A stretch of 64,000 bases of DNA, from the NCBI GenBank assembly GCA_029212615.1, contig JARGPJ010000002.1, positions 186,001 through 250,000 on the forward strand, written 5' to 3'. The DNA is from Verrucomicrobiales bacterium (GTDB taxonomy: Bacteria; Verrucomicrobiota; Verrucomicrobiia; Verrucomicrobiales; DEV007). Shown here piece after piece: positions 35,497-45,790 of the stretch (position 1 is the first letter of the stretch; every line of letters begins with the position of its first letter). The position numbers and the translations under genes were made by a program. The notes under the pieces are model-generated. The model was given only the letters and a program-made list of their open reading frames with translations, was not told the DNA's origin and did not search any database.

Positions 35497-36255
35497 TCAC
35501 GAATTTTCCCGGAGACTCGCGAGGGCTGCCTTCAGTTGAAACGCAGTGAGATCCGGAAAATGCTCGCGCAACCTCGCCGCGACCCCGGTGATCTGCGGGC
35601 AGGCAAAACTGGTTCCGGTAAATTGTTGCCAGCCGCCACCCGGTGTCGGGGCGTCGACATAGACGCCGCTCGCTTCAATCTCGGTAACGCGCTCGGGGTG
35701 AAAGCGAAAGCTCAAAGGGTCCTCAAAATAGTCCATGTCCACCCCGATGACTGAGGCAAGACCGGCAGGATAGCCCACCTTATTCCGCTTGTTATCCTTC
35801 GCTGCGACCCAAAGCATCCCCTGATAGTATGCCCTGTCCGCGAGGCGGGCGAGTTGCTCATAGCTCGATTCGGTTCCGAGACTGAGATTGAGAATATCCC
35901 ACTCCTGCTCCACTGCGAATTCCAGCGCGGCAAGCAACTTCGTCGAGGTCGAGCTGTGACTCGCACCGATCACGCGGATACTATGGAGTTCAGCATCAGG
36001 GGCATGTTGATGAATAATATAGGCACAGGCCGTTCCGTGTTCGATGACATCCTCCCCGATCGCCAGGGGAATGATCTCAGGCCGCCCGCGTCTATATTCT
36101 ACGACCTCATAGTTTCCGACAACCTTGCCTCCCAATTCGGGCAAGTCAGAGGCGACCCCGGAATCGAGAATTCCGACTTTTACACCCTTCCCTGTGCCTG
36201 TGGCCAGACATTCGCGAAGGCGTTCCTGATTAACGACTTCGTCAAAGGTCATCAT
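35497..36255 (-). CDS. S8 family (subtilisin-like) peptidase without prodomain
   Basis: A 252-residue serine protease. The triad is D31 (G-I-L-D-S-G-V), H73 (E-H-G-T-A-C-A) and S216 (G-T-S-F-A-C-P); the oxyanion asparagine is in V-A-A-K-D-N. It has neither signal peptide nor prodomain, so it acts in the cytosol and may be made active, as RiPP leader peptidases of this family are. It overlaps the end of the GAF gene by 14 bp, on the same strand as the MNIO-precursor-radical SAM genes. The start is uncertain (36255 or 36252 by ATG; an in-frame start at 36282 overlaps more). Confidence 0.87.
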   Translation of the reverse strand: MMTFDEVVNQERLRECLATGTGKGVKVGILDSGVASDLPELGGKVVGNYEVVEYRRGRPEIIPLAIGEDVIEHGTACAYIIHQHAPDAELHSIRVIGASHSSTSTKLLAALEFAVEQEWDILNLSLGTESSYEQLARLADRAYYQGMLWVAAKDNKRNKVGYPAGLASVIGVDMDYFEDPLSFRFHPERVTEIEASGVYVDAPTPGGGWQQFTGTSFACPQITGVAARLREHFPDLTAFQLKAALASLRENS

Positions 36256-36979
36256 GTCCACTCTCTTCCCCGTCCTCAGCATACTCTTCCAGCAAGTCAG
36301 CCATACGCAAAAGCATTTCCCGCTCGCGATCAGGGAGTGTGAGTGATTTCTCAGCGATCAGAGCAGGGATCCGATATTTCGAAGCGACAGCTCCGGCAGC
36401 CCCAAGATCGCCCGTCTCATCGAGATCAAACTCTCTGACGTGCTCTGCGATTTCGAGCTCTGCGACAGAAGTGCTGAATTCGATTTTCCGGTAAAGCTTC
36501 ATCGCCGTGGCGTAAATCTCCCCGAATCCCTGAGCCGCCTTCAGATCCTGTATCGAAAAAGGTGTCCCCGCAAAATCGCCGGAACGGTTCACAAAGGTAG
36601 CAACGCCGTAGACTCGATCATCATCGACGATGGGAACGGCGAGAAGGTAGTTTGTCTCTATCTGCGCAAGCTGATCCACTCGTGAAACACCGGGGCTGTC
36701 CGGGTTTACTTTTGCCATCGCCTGACGGGAGCTGAAGACATAACCACTGACCGAGCCCGCCACTGAAACAGTGATCCCGGACTCTTCCAAAGTCGGATTC
36801 ATCGAGACCAGAAAGCGAAGCTCAGTCTGATCATCAGAGGGAATTAGAATCGATCCCTCAGACGCGGAAATTGCCTCGCAAGTGTCTTTAACGAGTTGCC
36901 GCAGCATCTCTGCTGCGTCGAGAAGAATCCCGTCGCCGTGCTTTCGAATACGCTGAAGCGCTGTGGCGAAATCAGACAT
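36242..36979 (-). CDS. GAF domain protein
   Basis: A 245-residue cytosolic protein. A GAF domain occupies about residues 25-165, with the G-S-I-L-I-P strand, V-A-G-S-V-S-G-Y-V-F, and N-Y-L-L-A-V-P-I-V-D-D-D-R-V-Y-G-V-A as the conserved core. A helical C-terminal region (about 170-245) contains repeated leucines and acidic residues and may mediate partner contact. No kinase or cyclase output domain is attached. It overlaps the subtilase gene downstream and starts 69 bp after the MNIO stop on the same strand, so it may be part of the peptide operon or an independent sensor. Confidence 0.8.
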   Translation of the reverse strand: MSDFATALQRIRKHGDGILLDAAEMLRQLVKDTCEAISASEGSILIPSDDQTELRFLVSMNPTLEESGITVSVAGSVSGYVFSSRQAMAKVNPDSPGVSRVDQLAQIETNYLLAVPIVDDDRVYGVATFVNRSGDFAGTPFSIQDLKAAQGFGEIYATAMKLYRKIEFSTSVAELEIAEHVREFDLDETGDLGAAGAVASKYRIPALIAEKSLTLPDREREMLLRMADLLEEYAEDGEESGHDDL

Positions 36980-37048: not shown

Positions 37049-38257
37049 CTAAAAGCCCCCCGGCCCGAGCTGATTCGCCCAGGCGGCCCACTCCCGATTG
37101 TTGTATTCTTTTGCGACTTCTTTGTCCTCTTTTTTGAAGTAGTCCCACGCCTCCTCGTATTCGTGAACGAGACGTCCGTCACAATCGATCAGTTTTTGAA
37201 ACCATTCAGGATCACTGAGCTCGTACTTTTTCACCGCTTCAGGCGCATTCTCGAGGAAGGCTGTGCGAAATTCAGAATCAGTGATGCGCCCCATTAAGGC
37301 ACGCTGAAAGCTACGCATTCCGGCAAACAATTCATCCTTCGAATCAGGAGAGACTATCTCGACCTCCTCAAACACCGGTGGAGAAACTTCCGGGGCTTCG
37401 ACGGGACGATAGGAATAAAAAATTTCCCGCGCTTTTCGAATGTCAGCCATGACCGAGTCAAAAGGTTTCAGCTGGCTGTCGCGTTCGAGGATCACATTTC
37501 TTACATTCACCGAGCGTTTCACAGCCTCATCAAACAATGGCCAGACTTCATCCATGACCGGGGCTGAATGACTGTCCTCCCAGCGCCCGTCCGAAAGTTG
37601 ATGGCCACCGGCGAGATGCATTTGCGATACCCGCTCCATTGGAAGACGATCAAAAAATTCGATGGGGTCGTAACCGTGATTCCGTGAATTATTGAACACA
37701 TTGGTGACATCGAGGAGCAAGGTGCAGTCGGTCTCTTCGCAAACGCGGCGAAGAAAGTCCGCTTCACTGAGTGAACCATGCGGTGCCGCAAAGGAGTAAG
37801 TCACGTTTTCAAGAGCGAAAGGCCGACCAATCGCCCGGCGCGCTGCAAAGTAATTTCGTTTCACCCACTCAACCGCAACCTCCTCAAAGGGAATCGCAAG
37901 GAACATCGTGAGATCGTTTCCGTCGACACTGTGGTAGGCAAGGTGCTCACTGAAAATATTCAACCCGTTCTCCTCAATGAATCGACGCGTTCCTTTGAGA
38001 TATACTTCATCGAGTTCGCCAACTGTTCCGATCGAAAGTCGAAGACCGTGGGCGACGCAGGGAAAGCTGGCGAGGGCGTCTCTGAGTAGACGCTCATTCG
38101 GGTCAGCATGAGTGCGGCGTTCGCGAACGATGTAGTCTTCAGTCGAAAGCTCGAGAAGATCGATTTCGTTGCGATGCTGAACGGCTTCGCGGTGGACGTT
38201 AAACCGATACGCAAGACCGACTCCGTAGGGATGCTCGTGATGATTAGGGGAGGACAT
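37049..38257 (-). CDS. DUF692/MNIO family peptide-modifying oxidase with C-terminal extension
   Basis: A 402-residue protein. Residues about 8-280 form the DUF692 TIM barrel, now known as multinuclear non-haem iron-dependent oxidase (MNIO), which modifies cysteine, aspartate or other residues in ribosomal peptides (MbnB and TglH are examples). Candidate metal ligands are H in F-S-E-H-L-A-Y, E in A-L-E-N-V-T-Y, D and N in L-L-D-V-T-N-V-F-N-N, H in Q-M-H-L-A-G-G, and E/D in E-R-D-S-Q-L. Residues 291-402 are an extra domain with D-S-E-F-R-T-A-F-L-E-N-A-P-E-A-V-K-K-Y-E and L-S-D-P-E-W, resembling leader-type (NHLP/Os1348) sequence. It lies downstream of the precursor gene. Confidence 0.87.
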   Translation of the reverse strand: MSSPNHHEHPYGVGLAYRFNVHREAVQHRNEIDLLELSTEDYIVRERRTHADPNERLLRDALASFPCVAHGLRLSIGTVGELDEVYLKGTRRFIEENGLNIFSEHLAYHSVDGNDLTMFLAIPFEEVAVEWVKRNYFAARRAIGRPFALENVTYSFAAPHGSLSEADFLRRVCEETDCTLLLDVTNVFNNSRNHGYDPIEFFDRLPMERVSQMHLAGGHQLSDGRWEDSHSAPVMDEVWPLFDEAVKRSVNVRNVILERDSQLKPFDSVMADIRKAREIFYSYRPVEAPEVSPPVFEEVEIVSPDSKDELFAGMRSFQRALMGRITDSEFRTAFLENAPEAVKKYELSDPEWFQKLIDCDGRLVHEYEEAWDYFKKEDKEVAKEYNNREWAAWANQLGPGGF

Positions 38258-38277
38258 GTCAGGGGATAAGTGAGAGT

Positions 38278-38310
38278 TAACAGGGTTAGCTCACGGAGTC
38301 TACCCTGTTA
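38278..38310 (-). promoter_or_regulatory. Hairpin in the MNIO leader
   Basis: A perfect nine-base stem TAACAGGGT/ACCCTGTTA with a 15-base loop lies 21 bp before the MNIO ATG on its transcript. No Shine-Dalgarno sequence precedes that ATG, so folding could influence translation or RNA processing. Confidence 0.4.
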
Positions 38311-38373
38311 GATGGTCATCATTTTTGCGAAAGCTCATTGAAACGCTCGCAGAAATCATGATCTCCGCATTCC

Positions 38374-38399
38374 CCGGGCAACGCTTTCACGCTGCCCGG
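38374..38399 (-). terminator. Hairpin directly after the precursor gene
   Basis: CCGGGCA and TGCCCGG form a seven-base stem with a twelve-base loop, starting 20 nt after the precursor stop codon on the minus-strand transcript. There is no U-tract. Position suggests a partial terminator or RNase-resistant 3' end that lets precursor mRNA exceed MNIO mRNA. Confidence 0.4.
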
Positions 38400-38419
38400 A
38401 GATCGGAGGTTACAACGGA

Positions 38420-38782
38420 TCAGTGGTGGCAGTGGTTGCGCCAGCAGTTGCGCTGCCAGTGGTTACAGAAGTGGTTGCGACGCCAGCACCAGCCGTGCGC
38501 TTCAACGTCTCCCTCTGCTTCACCTTCAGGGCCGCCTTCGTATCCCCCTTCAAGACCGCCCATGGGAGCGCCGCCTGTGTGGATTTGAATCACGACCTGA
38601 CCGTTTGTGCCGGGGATAGGCATTCCTCCCTGGAGAGGGCCTGGACCGACAGGTCCTTCGGTAGGGCCGACGCCCGCATTACCGAGTTTTTCTTTGATCT
38701 CCTCAGCCGGGATCAGAGCACCTTCAAGTTGCTCGTCTGCGACTTCGTAGAACTTTCCATCACTACTTCTAAGTATAGCCAT
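38420..38782 (-). CDS. Candidate RiPP precursor peptide with Cys/Trp/His-rich core
   Basis: A 120-residue protein with two contrasting parts. The leader (1-33, beginning MAILRSSDGKFYEVADEQ) is acidic and helical, followed by a Gly/Pro-rich linker (34-95). The last 25 residues (96-120) consist mainly of C, W, H, N, R. Cysteines are at 99, 106, 113 and 118; W98, W100, W109, W114 and F105 are aromatic. Aromatic-X-X motifs are W100-R-R, F105-C-N, W109-Q-R and W114-R-N, each ending in R or N, as expected for three-residue cyclophane crosslinks. An AAGGAAAG ribosome-binding site and A-rich leader suggest strong translation. It lies between a radical SAM maturase and an MNIO. Confidence 0.82.
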   Translation of the reverse strand: MAILRSSDGKFYEVADEQLEGALIPAEEIKEKLGNAGVGPTEGPVGPGPLQGGMPIPGTNGQVVIQIHTGGAPMGGLEGGYEGGPEGEAEGDVEAHGWCWRRNHFCNHWQRNCWRNHCHH

Positions 38783-38866
38783 TTTATTTTCTTTCCTTGG
38801 TTTGTTTTTTTTTGTGGTTGTTGGCTCGCCTCGTGAAACAATCAGTCGGCATGGACCAGCAAAGGG

Positions 38867-40153
38867 TTAAACGCCTTCCGGCCTGGGTAGTTCGATAATC
38901 GGTGACTCCCTGTCGTTGATCCCCAGGTCATTCTCGAGGTCCTCAAGAACGATTTTCATGGGCATCTGAATAGTAGAGATGCACTGGTGGGTTTCTACCG
39001 AATCAAAGGTGCCGTTCTCGTAGTATTTATTCGAGGGGGAAGCACCACCGCAGTATTGATAAAATTCACATTGCTCTGAGCACTTCTTGTTGCCCGCTTC
39101 GATGTCGGCGAGGACCTGCTGGAAGGCATCGCTCACGGTGGCATCGAAAAGAGAACCGGTGATGAGACTTCCAAAGTTAAACGTGCCGTATTTCTCAGTG
39201 GGCTGACCGAGCAGTTCCGGTGAAAACATCGAAAAGTTGCCAAAGCAGTCAACGTTGACCATGCCGTAAGGATCTGCTTCCTGATTGTAGTAATCGCCAT
39301 CAGGCCGGTGGCACCAGCCGGGCTCGAGAATATTGCGTTCGGCGTTCTGAAACTCCCGGACATTCAGCGGAAAGCCATCAGCCTTGTTCCGCAGGTAGAA
39401 CTGCTTTAAAAAGGCGAAAATCCTGTCACTACTGTTGGCGGCATCGAGAGAGGATGACTCATTGGCACCCTCGACCTCTTCAATGTTGAATCCAATCCCG
39501 GTAATGTTGTTGTCCCGGTAGAATTCATACATTTCATCAGGGTGATCGACGGAAACATCCGAAATCACAGAGACAACACCAAAGGGAACATTGTTCTTCC
39601 GCAGGCATTCCATGCCTCGCATTGCTTTCTCCCAGGTCCCCTCCCCTTTGCGGGTTTTTCGATGATGATCATGTATGTGCTGAGGCCCATCAATACTGAG
39701 GCCGACTTCGACATTGTGTTCATTGAGAAAATTGCACCACTTATCACTAACCAGGGTGCCGTTCGTTTGCACTGAGTGAATCACAAACTCTTTGGCTCTC
39801 GGATAGCGGTTGATGATTTCGAAAGCCTGCTCATACCACTTAATCGGAACGGCCAGTGGCTCTCCGGCATGCCAGAGGATGCTGAAAGGATTCAGGACCA
39901 ATCCACTTTCCCAGACTTTGTCCATGACCTTCTCCAGCACTCCGAAATCCATGCGCCGCGTATCAGTTCGGTTAGGGAGATAGCAGTAATCGCAGTTAAT
40001 ATTGCAGAAGGGGCTCGGCTGAATCACGAGCAACCCCATCGAGAGTCGCTCCGAGTTTTGGGGAGTCAGCTTGGGGATCGTTCCGGTGACGTGTCCTTCG
40101 GAAACATTCCGTGAGGGAGCAGTGACTGGATTGGCTTCAAGGGTGGTTGTCAT
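38867..40153 (-). CDS. Radical SAM/SPASM peptide maturase, GrrM-like
   Basis: A 428-residue enzyme. The radical SAM cluster motif is C50-N-I-N-C54-D-Y-C57 in V-I-Q-P-S-P-F-C, the form typical of GrrM/OscB cyclophane-forming maturases. The C-terminal SPASM domain has C358, C362, C368 and C391 with Q-Y-C-G-G-A, binding auxiliary iron-sulfur clusters. In characterised relatives these enzymes join an aromatic ring carbon to the beta-carbon of a residue two places on. The precursor follows 84 bp downstream. No Shine-Dalgarno sequence is seen. Assignment to the GrrM subfamily is by motif memory and should be tested; radical SAM/SPASM itself is certain. Confidence 0.9.
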   Translation of the reverse strand: MTTTLEANPVTAPSRNVSEGHVTGTIPKLTPQNSERLSMGLLVIQPSPFCNINCDYCYLPNRTDTRRMDFGVLEKVMDKVWESGLVLNPFSILWHAGEPLAVPIKWYEQAFEIINRYPRAKEFVIHSVQTNGTLVSDKWCNFLNEHNVEVGLSIDGPQHIHDHHRKTRKGEGTWEKAMRGMECLRKNNVPFGVVSVISDVSVDHPDEMYEFYRDNNITGIGFNIEEVEGANESSSLDAANSSDRIFAFLKQFYLRNKADGFPLNVREFQNAERNILEPGWCHRPDGDYYNQEADPYGMVNVDCFGNFSMFSPELLGQPTEKYGTFNFGSLITGSLFDATVSDAFQQVLADIEAGNKKCSEQCEFYQYCGGASPSNKYYENGTFDSVETHQCISTIQMPMKIVLEDLENDLGINDRESPIIELPRPEGV

Positions 40154-40206
40154 GATGCAAGGGAGACGGTTGGAAAATTCAATGTATGAAGTCTTTCTGT
40201 AAAAAG

Positions 40207-40368
40207 TTATGAATTGTTGTTTTGATAGACTTCGAAAGCCTGAGGGCGGAGGTTCTTCTTCTCAGCACGTCGCCGGCGTACGAGGTCGATCCGGTATTGG
40301 AGAGGTTGTCTGGCACGAACGCCGACACGGACAGTGCGAATTCGGAAATCGAGAGTGGAAGCATTCAT
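40207..40368 (-). CDS. Possible small basic protein (53 aa)
   Basis: An ORF of 53 codons on the same strand as, and 53 bp upstream of, the radical SAM gene. It is strongly basic, with eleven or more arginines and an R-R-R-R-A-E-K-K stretch; it begins MNASTLDFRIRTVRV and ends F-E-V-Y-Q-N-N-N-S. All of its leucine codons are CTC, matching the window's preferred usage, but no ribosome-binding site is visible. Its end contains Y-Q-N, an aromatic-X-N pattern, so a second peptide substrate is conceivable; a chance ORF is equally possible. I do not recognise any family. Confidence 0.35.
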   Translation of the reverse strand: MNASTLDFRIRTVRVGVRARQPLQYRIDLVRRRRAEKKNLRPQAFEVYQNNNS

Positions 40369-40477
40369 TGGGAAAGAGTGTGTAGAGTTTTAATCTGGTT
40401 TTCGAGCGCAATCGGGAAAATGAACTGCCACGGTTTTGCTCTTGTAATGTGAGGTAAATCGAATCACGCTCCCCCGA

Positions 40478-40497
40478 GAGACGACCCGGGTCGGCTC
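40478..40497. promoter_or_regulatory. Palindrome upstream of the exporter (candidate operator)
   Basis: CGACCCGGGTCG is a perfect twelve-base palindrome, flanked symmetrically by GAG-A and G-CTC to give a 20 bp imperfect palindrome. It lies 24 bp before the ABC exporter ATG, downstream of a possible -10 (TGTAAT at 40443-40448). This is a plausible repressor site or a leader hairpin. Confidence 0.35.
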
Positions 40498-40520
40498 CTT
40501 ATGCAAAAGGATCTCCAGAC

Positions 40521-42296
40521 ATGTCAAACGAACCGCCCGCCCCTGCTTCAGAATCATCCGGCGAAGAAAGTTTACCTATGGAGGGACCTCCTCCCGGCTT
40601 CGACCTCGATCCAAAGGAAATGCGTAGACATTGCTTTCGCCTCATCCGGGAAGTAATCGGAAGTCTCGGCTGGAAATACAAACTGTGGATCCCTGCCGCC
40701 ATGCTGCTCTCGGCAGTCCACCTCCTTCCTCCCCGCTTTCTTCTTTTCTTTACCGAGCGCACGCAGGCTCTTTCCGAAACCGGCGCCGATGATTTCATCA
40801 AGATGCTGGTAATTTTCGGTGTCGGCGTCGGCATTTGCCAATGGATCGCACTCGTCTTCGACAGCATTCTCAGTGAATGGCTTAGGCTTACCGTGAGTAT
40901 CAGAATGAAGCAGGACGCCGTCGACAGTCTCAGCCGCACCCGCATTGATTCACTCGACTCCGCTCAGCGAGGTGACTGGATGACCCGGCTCTCCAGTGAT
41001 ATCTACAACGCTGAGGAATTCCTCACCGCCTCCCTCCCCGGTCAGATCACAAACGCAACGATGATGATTGGTTCTGCGGCCCTCTTTTTCTACTACTCCG
41101 GGCCGATCGCGTTTATCCCCCTTCTCGCCGCGCTCTTTCTCGGCTGGTTTAATATTGCGGTGCAGCGAAAAATGGGGCCCACTCTCTCACGCGCCCGTAT
41201 GCTTGAAGGCGGCGTCTTTCAGTCGATGATCGAAACCTTCGAAGGGCTGCGGACAATTCGGAGCTATGGAGCCGAAGGCTTCACGAGGCGGAAACTTACC
41301 GGACAACTCAACGATGTCTATGTCACCGGCATGAGCATTACCCGATCGATGGCCCTCCTCATTGGAGTCACTGAATTTGTGGGGCAACTCATCGTAACCG
41401 GGCTACTCACACTGGTGGCGTTTCAAGTGATCGGAGAAACCCTCACCGCGGAGAACGCCCTCGTTTACCCTTTCTATCTGACGCTCTTTCTTGGTGCTGC
41501 GAAAGGACTTGTGGGATCCGCCTACGACTGGAACCGCTTCTTTATCGAAGGGGGACGGCTCGCCTCTCTGCTTTATGACGAGGAAAACAAAGAGGCTGAT
41601 CGTGAAGAACTTTTCGGCGGCTTTGAGTCAGAAACAGCCTCCGTGAAGCGATTTTCCGCAGAGAATGTTTTTATTTCCTATGGTGACAATCCTCCGGTGA
41701 TTCGAAATCAAGGGCTCGAACTCAACCGCGGGGAGATCGTTGCCTTAATGGGAGAATCCGGCTGCGGAAAATCAACGCTGACCGAATCCTTTGCAGGCCT
41801 TCGCCAGGCGAATGAGGGATCATTCACCGCAACGATGAATGACGGGGAACAGCGAAGCTTCGAGCAGGCGCCCCCTTTCCTCGGCGCTTTTGTCGAGCAG
41901 CAACCCTACCTCTTTGTCGGCAGTATCCGCGACAATATCACTCTCGGCCATGAAAGTGTCTCTGACGATGATGTCAGGGCCGCACTTGCAGAAGTCGGTC
42001 TCGCGGAAATTGTTGAACGACGTGGCGGGCTCGATCATGTCCTCACGGACCGGGGGAGAAACATGAGCGTCGGGCAGCAATATCGCCTCGCACTCTGCCG
42101 CGCCCTTGTCTGTGGTCGCCCCTTCCTCCTTATGGATGAACCCTTCGCCGCGCTCGACGTGGAATCGGTCGAACTCGTTGTTAAAGCCATGAAAGAGGAG
42201 CGAGCCGGAGGGACGGGTATTCTCCTCATCACCCACCTGCTTCCCGATGGCCTCGAAGCTGACCGGATCGTCGAGCTCGTGGCACATAGGGATTGA
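40521..42296 (+). CDS. ABC exporter, fused permease and ATPase
   Basis: A 591-residue type IV ABC exporter half-transporter. Six membrane segments lie in residues about 55-340, with an X-loop-like region. The ATPase has Walker A G-E-S-G-C-G-K-S-T, a modified signature M-S-V-G-Q-Q-Y-R-L-A-L-C-R-A-L in place of L-S-G-G-Q, Walker B F-L-L-M-D-E-P-F-A-A-L-D and H-loop I-T-H-L. There is no N-terminal C39 peptidase domain, so it would export rather than trim a peptide. An AAAAGGAT sequence precedes the ATG. Divergent placement beside the maturase makes it the likely exporter of the mature peptide, by inference. Confidence 0.85.
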   Translation: MSNEPPAPASESSGEESLPMEGPPPGFDLDPKEMRRHCFRLIREVIGSLGWKYKLWIPAAMLLSAVHLLPPRFLLFFTERTQALSETGADDFIKMLVIFGVGVGICQWIALVFDSILSEWLRLTVSIRMKQDAVDSLSRTRIDSLDSAQRGDWMTRLSSDIYNAEEFLTASLPGQITNATMMIGSAALFFYYSGPIAFIPLLAALFLGWFNIAVQRKMGPTLSRARMLEGGVFQSMIETFEGLRTIRSYGAEGFTRRKLTGQLNDVYVTGMSITRSMALLIGVTEFVGQLIVTGLLTLVAFQVIGETLTAENALVYPFYLTLFLGAAKGLVGSAYDWNRFFIEGGRLASLLYDEENKEADREELFGGFESETASVKRFSAENVFISYGDNPPVIRNQGLELNRGEIVALMGESGCGKSTLTESFAGLRQANEGSFTATMNDGEQRSFEQAPPFLGAFVEQQPYLFVGSIRDNITLGHESVSDDDVRAALAEVGLAEIVERRGGLDHVLTDRGRNMSVGQQYRLALCRALVCGRPFLLMDEPFAALDVESVELVVKAMKEERAGGTGILLITHLLPDGLEADRIVELVAHRD

Positions 42297-45724: not shown

Positions 45725-45790
45725 TTTAGCATTTGAGTCTGACCGCTCTATCCCCTTTGATGATTGCCGGTACCGCTACCCGTTTTTGAT

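Follow-up and report, generated by a model that had tools for sequence, protein, structure and literature searches.

The 64,000-nucleotide stretch of a Verrucomicrobiales bacterium analysed here (assembly GCA_029212615.1, contig JARGPJ010000002.1, positions 186,001 to 250,000 of the forward strand; referred to as the window) contains a candidate locus for a ribosomally synthesized and post-translationally modified peptide (RiPP), in which the gene of a short precursor peptide lies between the genes of two modifying enzymes, a radical S-adenosylmethionine (SAM) maturase with a SPASM domain and a multinuclear non-heme iron-dependent oxidative enzyme (MNIO, DUF692). An earlier, sequence-only reading had placed the radical SAM/SPASM gene, the precursor and the MNIO gene on the minus strand in this order, with a divergent ATP-binding cassette (ABC) exporter, and this arrangement is borne out by open reading frames (ORFs) at those positions and by profile matches. 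The range given in that reading, from the MNIO gene to the exporter, leaves out a GAF-domain gene and a subtilase gene further along the minus strand, and a helical extension within the MNIO was overlooked as well. The central features are as follows, in coordinates of the window.

37049..38257, minus strand: MNIO (DUF692, PF05114) with a C-terminal extension, 402 amino acids, from the ORF and profile match
37052..37390, minus strand: C-terminal helical extension of the MNIO, residues 290-402, with the tail YxxREWAxWAxQL, from a 12-row alignment
38420..38782, minus strand: precursor peptide, 120 amino acids, from the ORF and homology among relatives
38681..38782, minus strand: conserved leader region of the precursor, residues 1-34 (MAILRSSDGKFYEVADEQLEGALIPAEEIKEKLG), from a 19-row alignment
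38423..38494, minus strand: core of the precursor, residues 97-120 (GWCWRRNHFCNHWQRNCWRNHCHH), from alignment and motif counts
38867..40153, minus strand: radical SAM/SPASM maturase of the GrrM/OscB (TIGR04261) type, 428 amino acids, from the profile match
40521..42296, plus strand: ABC exporter, 591 amino acids, with ABC_membrane and ABC_tran domains, divergent from the radical SAM gene

Transcription on the minus strand runs from the radical SAM gene through the precursor and MNIO genes to the GAF-domain and subtilase genes, with gaps of 84 bp between the radical SAM and precursor genes and 162 bp between the precursor and MNIO genes; 367 bp separate the divergent starts of the radical SAM and ABC genes. 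By profile search, the genome that contains the window has one match to TIGR04261 and two to PF05114.

The radical SAM protein scores 435.5 bits in TIGR04261 (GrrM/OscB), above the curated cut-off of 310. The CX3CX2C motif (C50-x3-C54-x2-C57) and five SPASM cysteines (C303, C358, C362, C368 and C391) are kept in 17 of 17 aligned orthologues, and these five presumably hold the auxiliary clusters. OscB crosslinks C7 of Trp to C-beta of Asn or Asp in an i,i+2 arrangement, and also links C4 of Phe to C-beta of an Asn two positions later (review PMC11002830); the precursor core contains both of these motifs, WxN and FxN.

The precursor has no match in Pfam or NCBIfam (E<=0.1) or in PHROGs (E<=0.01), and no relative of it was found in the viral contigs and plasmids searched. 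In a sample of 74 genomes of the same family from 18 genera (designated by G numbers), in which each protein was searched for separately, precursor matches occur in 24 genomes at E<=0.01, 20 of these at E<1e-6; weak matches in G067, G045 and G008 were judged to be due to chance, as they lie inside frames of 396 to 2471 codons. An alignment of 19 rows, drawn from 18 genomes, shows conservation of both leader and core. The leader consensus, MAILRSxDGxFYxxxDxxL, is nearly fixed, and M1-S6, D8, G9, F11, Y12, D16, L19, K30 and L33 are invariant. In the core region H96, W100, N107, W109, R111, N112, C113, R115 and N116 are invariant, position 114 is W or F, and C99 is present in at least 90% of the rows; the repetitive Cys/Trp/His/Asn/Arg core recognized in the first reading is conserved at W, at N and at one C. 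The pattern C-W-R-[RH]-N-x-F-x-N-x-W-x-R-N-C-[WF]-R-N is found in 16 of the 19 rows, and the three others, from g10, are shorter yet similar, based on CWRRN-CWRN-CWHN. The invariant His-96, just before the core, may mark the site at which the leader is cleaved. A Gly/Pro-rich linker including a GQVVIQI segment is absent from G057 and from the g10 species. The ratio of nonsynonymous to synonymous differences (pN/pS) among 13 close precursors (78 pairs), all of them from g1 with G017 and G029 left out, is 0.13 in the leader, 0.32 in the linker and 0.24 in the core, at a high pS of 0.44-0.65. Each of the 19 cores contains two (16 cores) or three (three cores) [WF]xN motifs and two to five Cys, of which 57 of 76 directly precede W or F. 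Two genomes were excluded from the alignments and motif counts: G025, from which no precursor was recovered, and G029, whose precursor core consists of unknown letters (L008). The precursor match is also broken at L022:7612-7753, apparently in the same contig as L008.

The MNIO scores 238.7 bits in PF05114 (cut-off 25) and has the fold of TglH and MbnB. Eight of its residues (H70, H105, E150, H194, H214, D228, H230 and E258) are invariant in 20 MNIO rows that include eight distant MNIOs, and some of them are presumably metal ligands. In NCBIfam the highest scores come from HvfB and BufB, each below its cut-off (204.3 against 360 and 187.1 against 310). The C-terminal extension, with its conserved tail, has a weak resemblance to NHLP/Os1348 (E<=1) in 10 of 12 members, and the mean predicted local distance difference test (pLDDT) score per 10-residue block is 91-96 over residues 301-360 and drops to 35-58 beyond residue 380. 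This conserved helical extension may stand in for the separate partner protein of an MNIO, as a putative fused partner of PME type 2. The second MNIO of the same genome (C3:250000-260000; 361 bits in PF05114) is followed by a DUF2063 gene, and the two genes upstream of it look by eye like those of a histidine kinase and a response regulator. The final 56 residues of the window's MNIO match, at 70% identity, a fragment with two stop codons at C18:640689-640856 on the minus strand, approximately 416 kb away on the same contig, which looks like the remnant of a second copy.

The check proposed by the sequence-only reading, a search for the precursor together with both enzymes in related genomes, was run on the family sample. 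The radical SAM protein is present in 20 of the 74 genomes at E<=1e-30, which are the same 20 that possess an MNIO orthologue (at least 53% identity). Another eight genomes, of 28 with an MNIO match at E<=1e-10, have non-orthologous matches: a diverged MNIO in G065 (36% identity over residues 9-342) and matches to the catalytic part only, at 32-35%, in seven genomes. Neither enzyme orthologue occurs without the other, and both are absent from the remaining 54 genomes. The precursor was detected at E<1e-6 in G065 and in 19 of the 20 enzyme-bearing genomes, with a conserved core accompanying both enzymes; in the twentieth, G025, the MNIO gene ends one contig and the radical SAM gene begins another, so that the precursor would fall in the gap. 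The three genes stand in the order radical SAM, precursor, MNIO on one contig in 19 loci, the window included. The radical SAM gene of G062 and the MNIO gene of G022 run off the contig, G020 has approximately 2 kb between precursor and MNIO, and G004 has two tandem precursors. The ABC exporter gene is divergent and adjacent in 17 of 19 loci, and the other two run out of contig. Genome completeness varies, so absences are soft; among the 41 genomes with completeness of 90% or more and contamination of 5% or less, 15 have the radical SAM gene. Named genomes were scanned for the MNIO with short peptide patterns taken from this protein alone, an approach that detects only close relatives. Of the 20 loci obtained, 12 belong to Verrucomicrobiales, Akkermansiaceae or Verrucomicrobiia and eight have distant MNIOs, and at the latter no match to the window's radical SAM protein was found within the stretches fetched; because many of these loci are apparently on the same contigs as those of the family sample, the two sets are not summed. 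Among 387 genomes of the phylum, the precursor profile matched only the genome of the window among the matches listed (at most 11 candidates scored), and the GrrM family likewise matched that genome only; among 384 genomes of the class, the MNIO had just two matches beyond its own genome, at 38% and in the catalytic part only. These samples were drawn evenly from larger groups, so the genes may also occur in genomes beyond them. The locus itself is real and coherent and has been conserved, and as genetics there is good support for a GrrM/OscB-type maturase and an MNIO sharing a single precursor.

Diverged systems are encoded by G065 and G058. The radical SAM protein of G065 is SPASM-like and not a GrrM protein (74 bits in TIGR04261); it is accompanied by two precursors whose leaders are of the same style and whose cores are WRNWRNWRNWRN (WRN repeats), and the GAF and subtilase genes are read divergently. 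Its ABC gene continues on a second contig that shares 41 identical end bases, and after it comes an MNIO that is likewise extended at its C terminus. The gene order of G058 is the same up to the end of its contig, inside the ABC gene, and no MNIO match was found at 1e-10 in this genome, which is 83% complete. The two systems were considered as MNIO-less controls and dropped, since both contigs end inside the ABC gene and the MNIO of G065 is on the overlapping contig. The [WF]xN counts of the three diverged precursors are 5, 5 and 7. The G065 lineage suggests that the pairing of radical SAM enzyme and MNIO may be older than this one gene family. A leader-like ORF (DGRxxxxxxExLExCRIPDE) that has no Trp-Asn core lies between precursor and exporter in both diverged loci, at L045:422-988 (minus strand) and L052:5321-5860 (plus strand).

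With the GrrM/OscB triceptides the locus shares a maturase above the cut-off, [WF]xN core motifs and a precursor gene beside the maturase gene, but the stretches fetched from Nostoc, Phaeobacter and Streptomyces show no MNIO. Six plasmid records match GrrM, four of them from Phaeobacter, of which one was read. On the Nostoc and Phaeobacter plasmids, small proteins beside grrM contain WDN/WND/WGN and WLN/WSN/WNN/FSN, and no MNIO was found by annotation or tblastn within up to 4 kb on each side (in Nostoc, one side covers approximately 2 kb). In the Streptomyces grrM stretch there is no MNIO and no clear precursor. These small proteins have a different leader and no Cys in the core, whereas in the window's group most Cys are right before an aromatic residue. 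The contrast between Cys-free neighbors of GrrM where no MNIO is encoded and the two to five core Cys found here, drawn from two outside loci, gives the clearest hint that the MNIO acts on Cys. Two systems that combine an MNIO with a radical SAM enzyme differ in their chemistry. The biphenomycin-like pbs system also has one precursor, an MNIO and a crosslink-forming radical SAM enzyme, but the latter is B12-dependent and joins two MNIO-made ortho-Tyr residues in an FHAFRF core, and an arginase, a hydroxylase and a separate partner protein take part (PMC12257519). The aminopyruvatide system, apy, has both enzyme types in one cluster acting on one peptide, but its radical SAM enzyme is a B12-dependent methylating one, its crosslink is made by a cytochrome P450 and its MNIO acts on the C-terminal Asp (PMC10635010). 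The literature matches listed pair MNIOs only with such B12-dependent radical SAM enzymes (pbs in PMC12257519, apy in PMC10635010), and a pairing of an MNIO with a SPASM-type cyclophane former was not found among the open-access matches listed, which does not prove novelty; the rarity first claimed for the combination needs to be narrowed accordingly. Bufferins are linked to the locus by the HvfB and BufB models, the best-scoring ones for its MNIO, but they have a separate DUF2063 partner, whereas the window's MNIO falls below those cut-offs and carries an extension; in a term search of the bufferin paper PMC12452194, radical SAM is named only in the reference list.

The gene set and its conservation probably encode a RiPP pathway by which one peptide acquires Trp/Phe-Asn cyclophanes and is also oxidized by the MNIO, likely at Cys. 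From these genes we infer the following reactions and their order. The maturases would bind the leader of the precursor. At each [WF]xN motif the radical SAM enzyme would bond the aromatic ring of the Trp or Phe to the Asn side chain, forming three-residue cyclophanes along the core, and the MNIO, with its extension replacing a partner protein, would oxidize the same peptide, most likely at Cys. A QhpE-like subtilase, encoded downstream of the MNIO, would cut away leader and linker near the conserved His ahead of the core, and the divergent ABC transporter would export the product. The original proposal that one peptide is both crosslinked and oxidized is supported in this form by co-occurrence and by the motif match, the chemistry itself being what we infer.

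Several observations weigh against this pathway. With 2000 shuffles for each of 22 cores, the number of [WF]xN motifs is not significant in the two-motif cores (16 of the 22; P 0.09-0.34), compared with P 0.018-0.029 in three-motif cores and P <=0.0005 in diverged cores, so in the two-motif cores the argument is carried by conservation of position. Of the four units found in the window's group, two have the form W-x-R-N or W-R-[RH]-N (WRRN, WQRN, WRHN, WSRN), and such W-x-x-N units misfit the three-residue rule for Asn. The core is constrained, less so than the leader (pN/pS 0.24 versus 0.13). Cys residues differ in count and placement between cores: the first one is missing from G062, and C113 alone is invariant. 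The Cys comparison with GrrM neighbors covers two outside loci, in which position and motif were the sole basis for assigning the precursors. The subtilase is part of a wider GAF-subtilase module that is also present in operons where no radical SAM gene was seen.

The product may be mainly a bufferin-like metal-binding peptide with a backbone stiffened by cyclophanes, rather than an antimicrobial, although this is somewhat unlikely. Bufferins are the largest families of MNIO products and chelate copper (PMC12452194). Cys is abundant in the core of the window's group, as is His in some species, but the number of core His ranges from 0 to 6, no Sec signal is recognized by eye in the precursor, unlike those of bufferins, and none of the nine proteins scanned around the set is a metal regulator or transporter. 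The gene at 45764, which we take to be TerC-like, has no match in the 22 neighbor loci.

A different substrate residue is the next alternative: the MNIO would act at Asn, Phe, Trp or His, for example by hydroxylation or cleavage, and Cys would remain unmodified, holding metal or serving only in binding. Reported MNIO targets include, besides Cys, Asp and Asn (PMC10635010) and Phe (PMC12257519), and in the precursor Asn and Trp are conserved more strictly than every Cys except C113. Oxidation of Cys is also called into question by the aminopyruvatides, which need a conserved Cys that stays unmodified (PMC10635010). This alternative is judged unlikely, given that the group to which the best-scoring (below cut-off) models HvfB and BufB belong makes thiooxazoles from Cys (PMC12257519) and that the two GrrM-neighbor proteins with no MNIO nearby have a Cys-free core.

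The genes that follow the MNIO gene bear on removal of the leader.

36242..36979, minus strand: gene of a GAF-domain protein, PF01590, 35.7 bits
35497..36282, minus strand: subtilase (S8), probable leader peptidase, PF00082, 91.2 bits

These two genes overlap. The profile matches of the ABC exporter (E<=0.1) include no C39 peptidase, so a separate leader peptidase is expected. The best NCBIfam match of the subtilase is QhpE (NF049966; 113.7 bits, under the cut-off of 165), which cuts the leader off radical SAM-crosslinked QhpC ahead of ABC export (PMC7876137). The QhpD/E/F system of quinohemoprotein amine dehydrogenase thus resembles the locus in radical SAM crosslinking, a subtilisin-like leader peptidase and ABC export (PMC7876137), and differs in that its product is an enzyme subunit with thioethers and that the window's subtilase is below the QhpE cut-off. 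The possibility that the subtilase and GAF genes are chance neighbors and that another protease removes the leader would fit with this low score, with the location of the subtilase gene on a different contig from the set in G004, G015, G056 and G057 (with no subtilase match within the 7-8 kb read after the MNIO gene) and approximately 10 kb off in G006, and with the existence of GAF-subtilase pairs elsewhere. It is nevertheless improbable, because the subtilase scores at least 140 bits in 19 of the 20 set-bearing genomes and is represented in the remaining one, G022, by a fragment of 71% identity, while nothing exceeds 130 bits in the 54 same-family genomes that lack the set, and because its gene directly follows the MNIO gene in three g10 loci. 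At E<=1e-12 the GAF gene was detected in 13 of the 20 set-bearing genomes and never in the 54 others, and by coordinates it adjoins the subtilase gene in all 13. GAF-subtilase pairs recur in the genome of the window (L065, L066) and at L058-L061 and L064; the pair at L065 precedes a YkuD-type gene, and elsewhere proteins of approximately 400 amino acids with a similar start come after the pair.

That the enzymes serve different peptides, the radical SAM enzyme this precursor and the MNIO another, unlinked one, would avoid crowding two types of modification on one short core and could draw on the two precursor copies of G004 and the extra leader-like ORF in the G065 and G058 loci, but it is very improbable with the precursor gene between both enzyme genes in 19 loci, a single precursor copy in 18 of them (tblastn), both enzymes in the same 20 of 74 genomes and the other MNIO of the window's genome beside a DUF2063 gene of its own.

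The pathway of cyclophane formation and MNIO oxidation on one peptide might, more tentatively, represent a new class of RiPP, made by a SPASM cyclophane former and an MNIO with a built-in partner domain, in which a repeated Cys-aromatic-x-Asn core would be converted to strained Trp/Phe-Asn rings alternating with MNIO-made Cys heterocycles; doubt slightly outweighs confidence in this extension. If the pathway is correct, two enzyme families of current interest act together on a single ribosomal peptide, a combination not found in the open-access literature searched, and the MNIO, possibly carrying its own partner domain, could be used to ask whether such enzymes require a substrate that is already crosslinked. 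The locus would then offer, in compact form, peptides that bear both cyclophanes and modified cysteines, from Verrucomicrobiales for which most of the data are metagenome assemblies, and the pairing of radical SAM enzyme and MNIO could yield a new kind of natural product.

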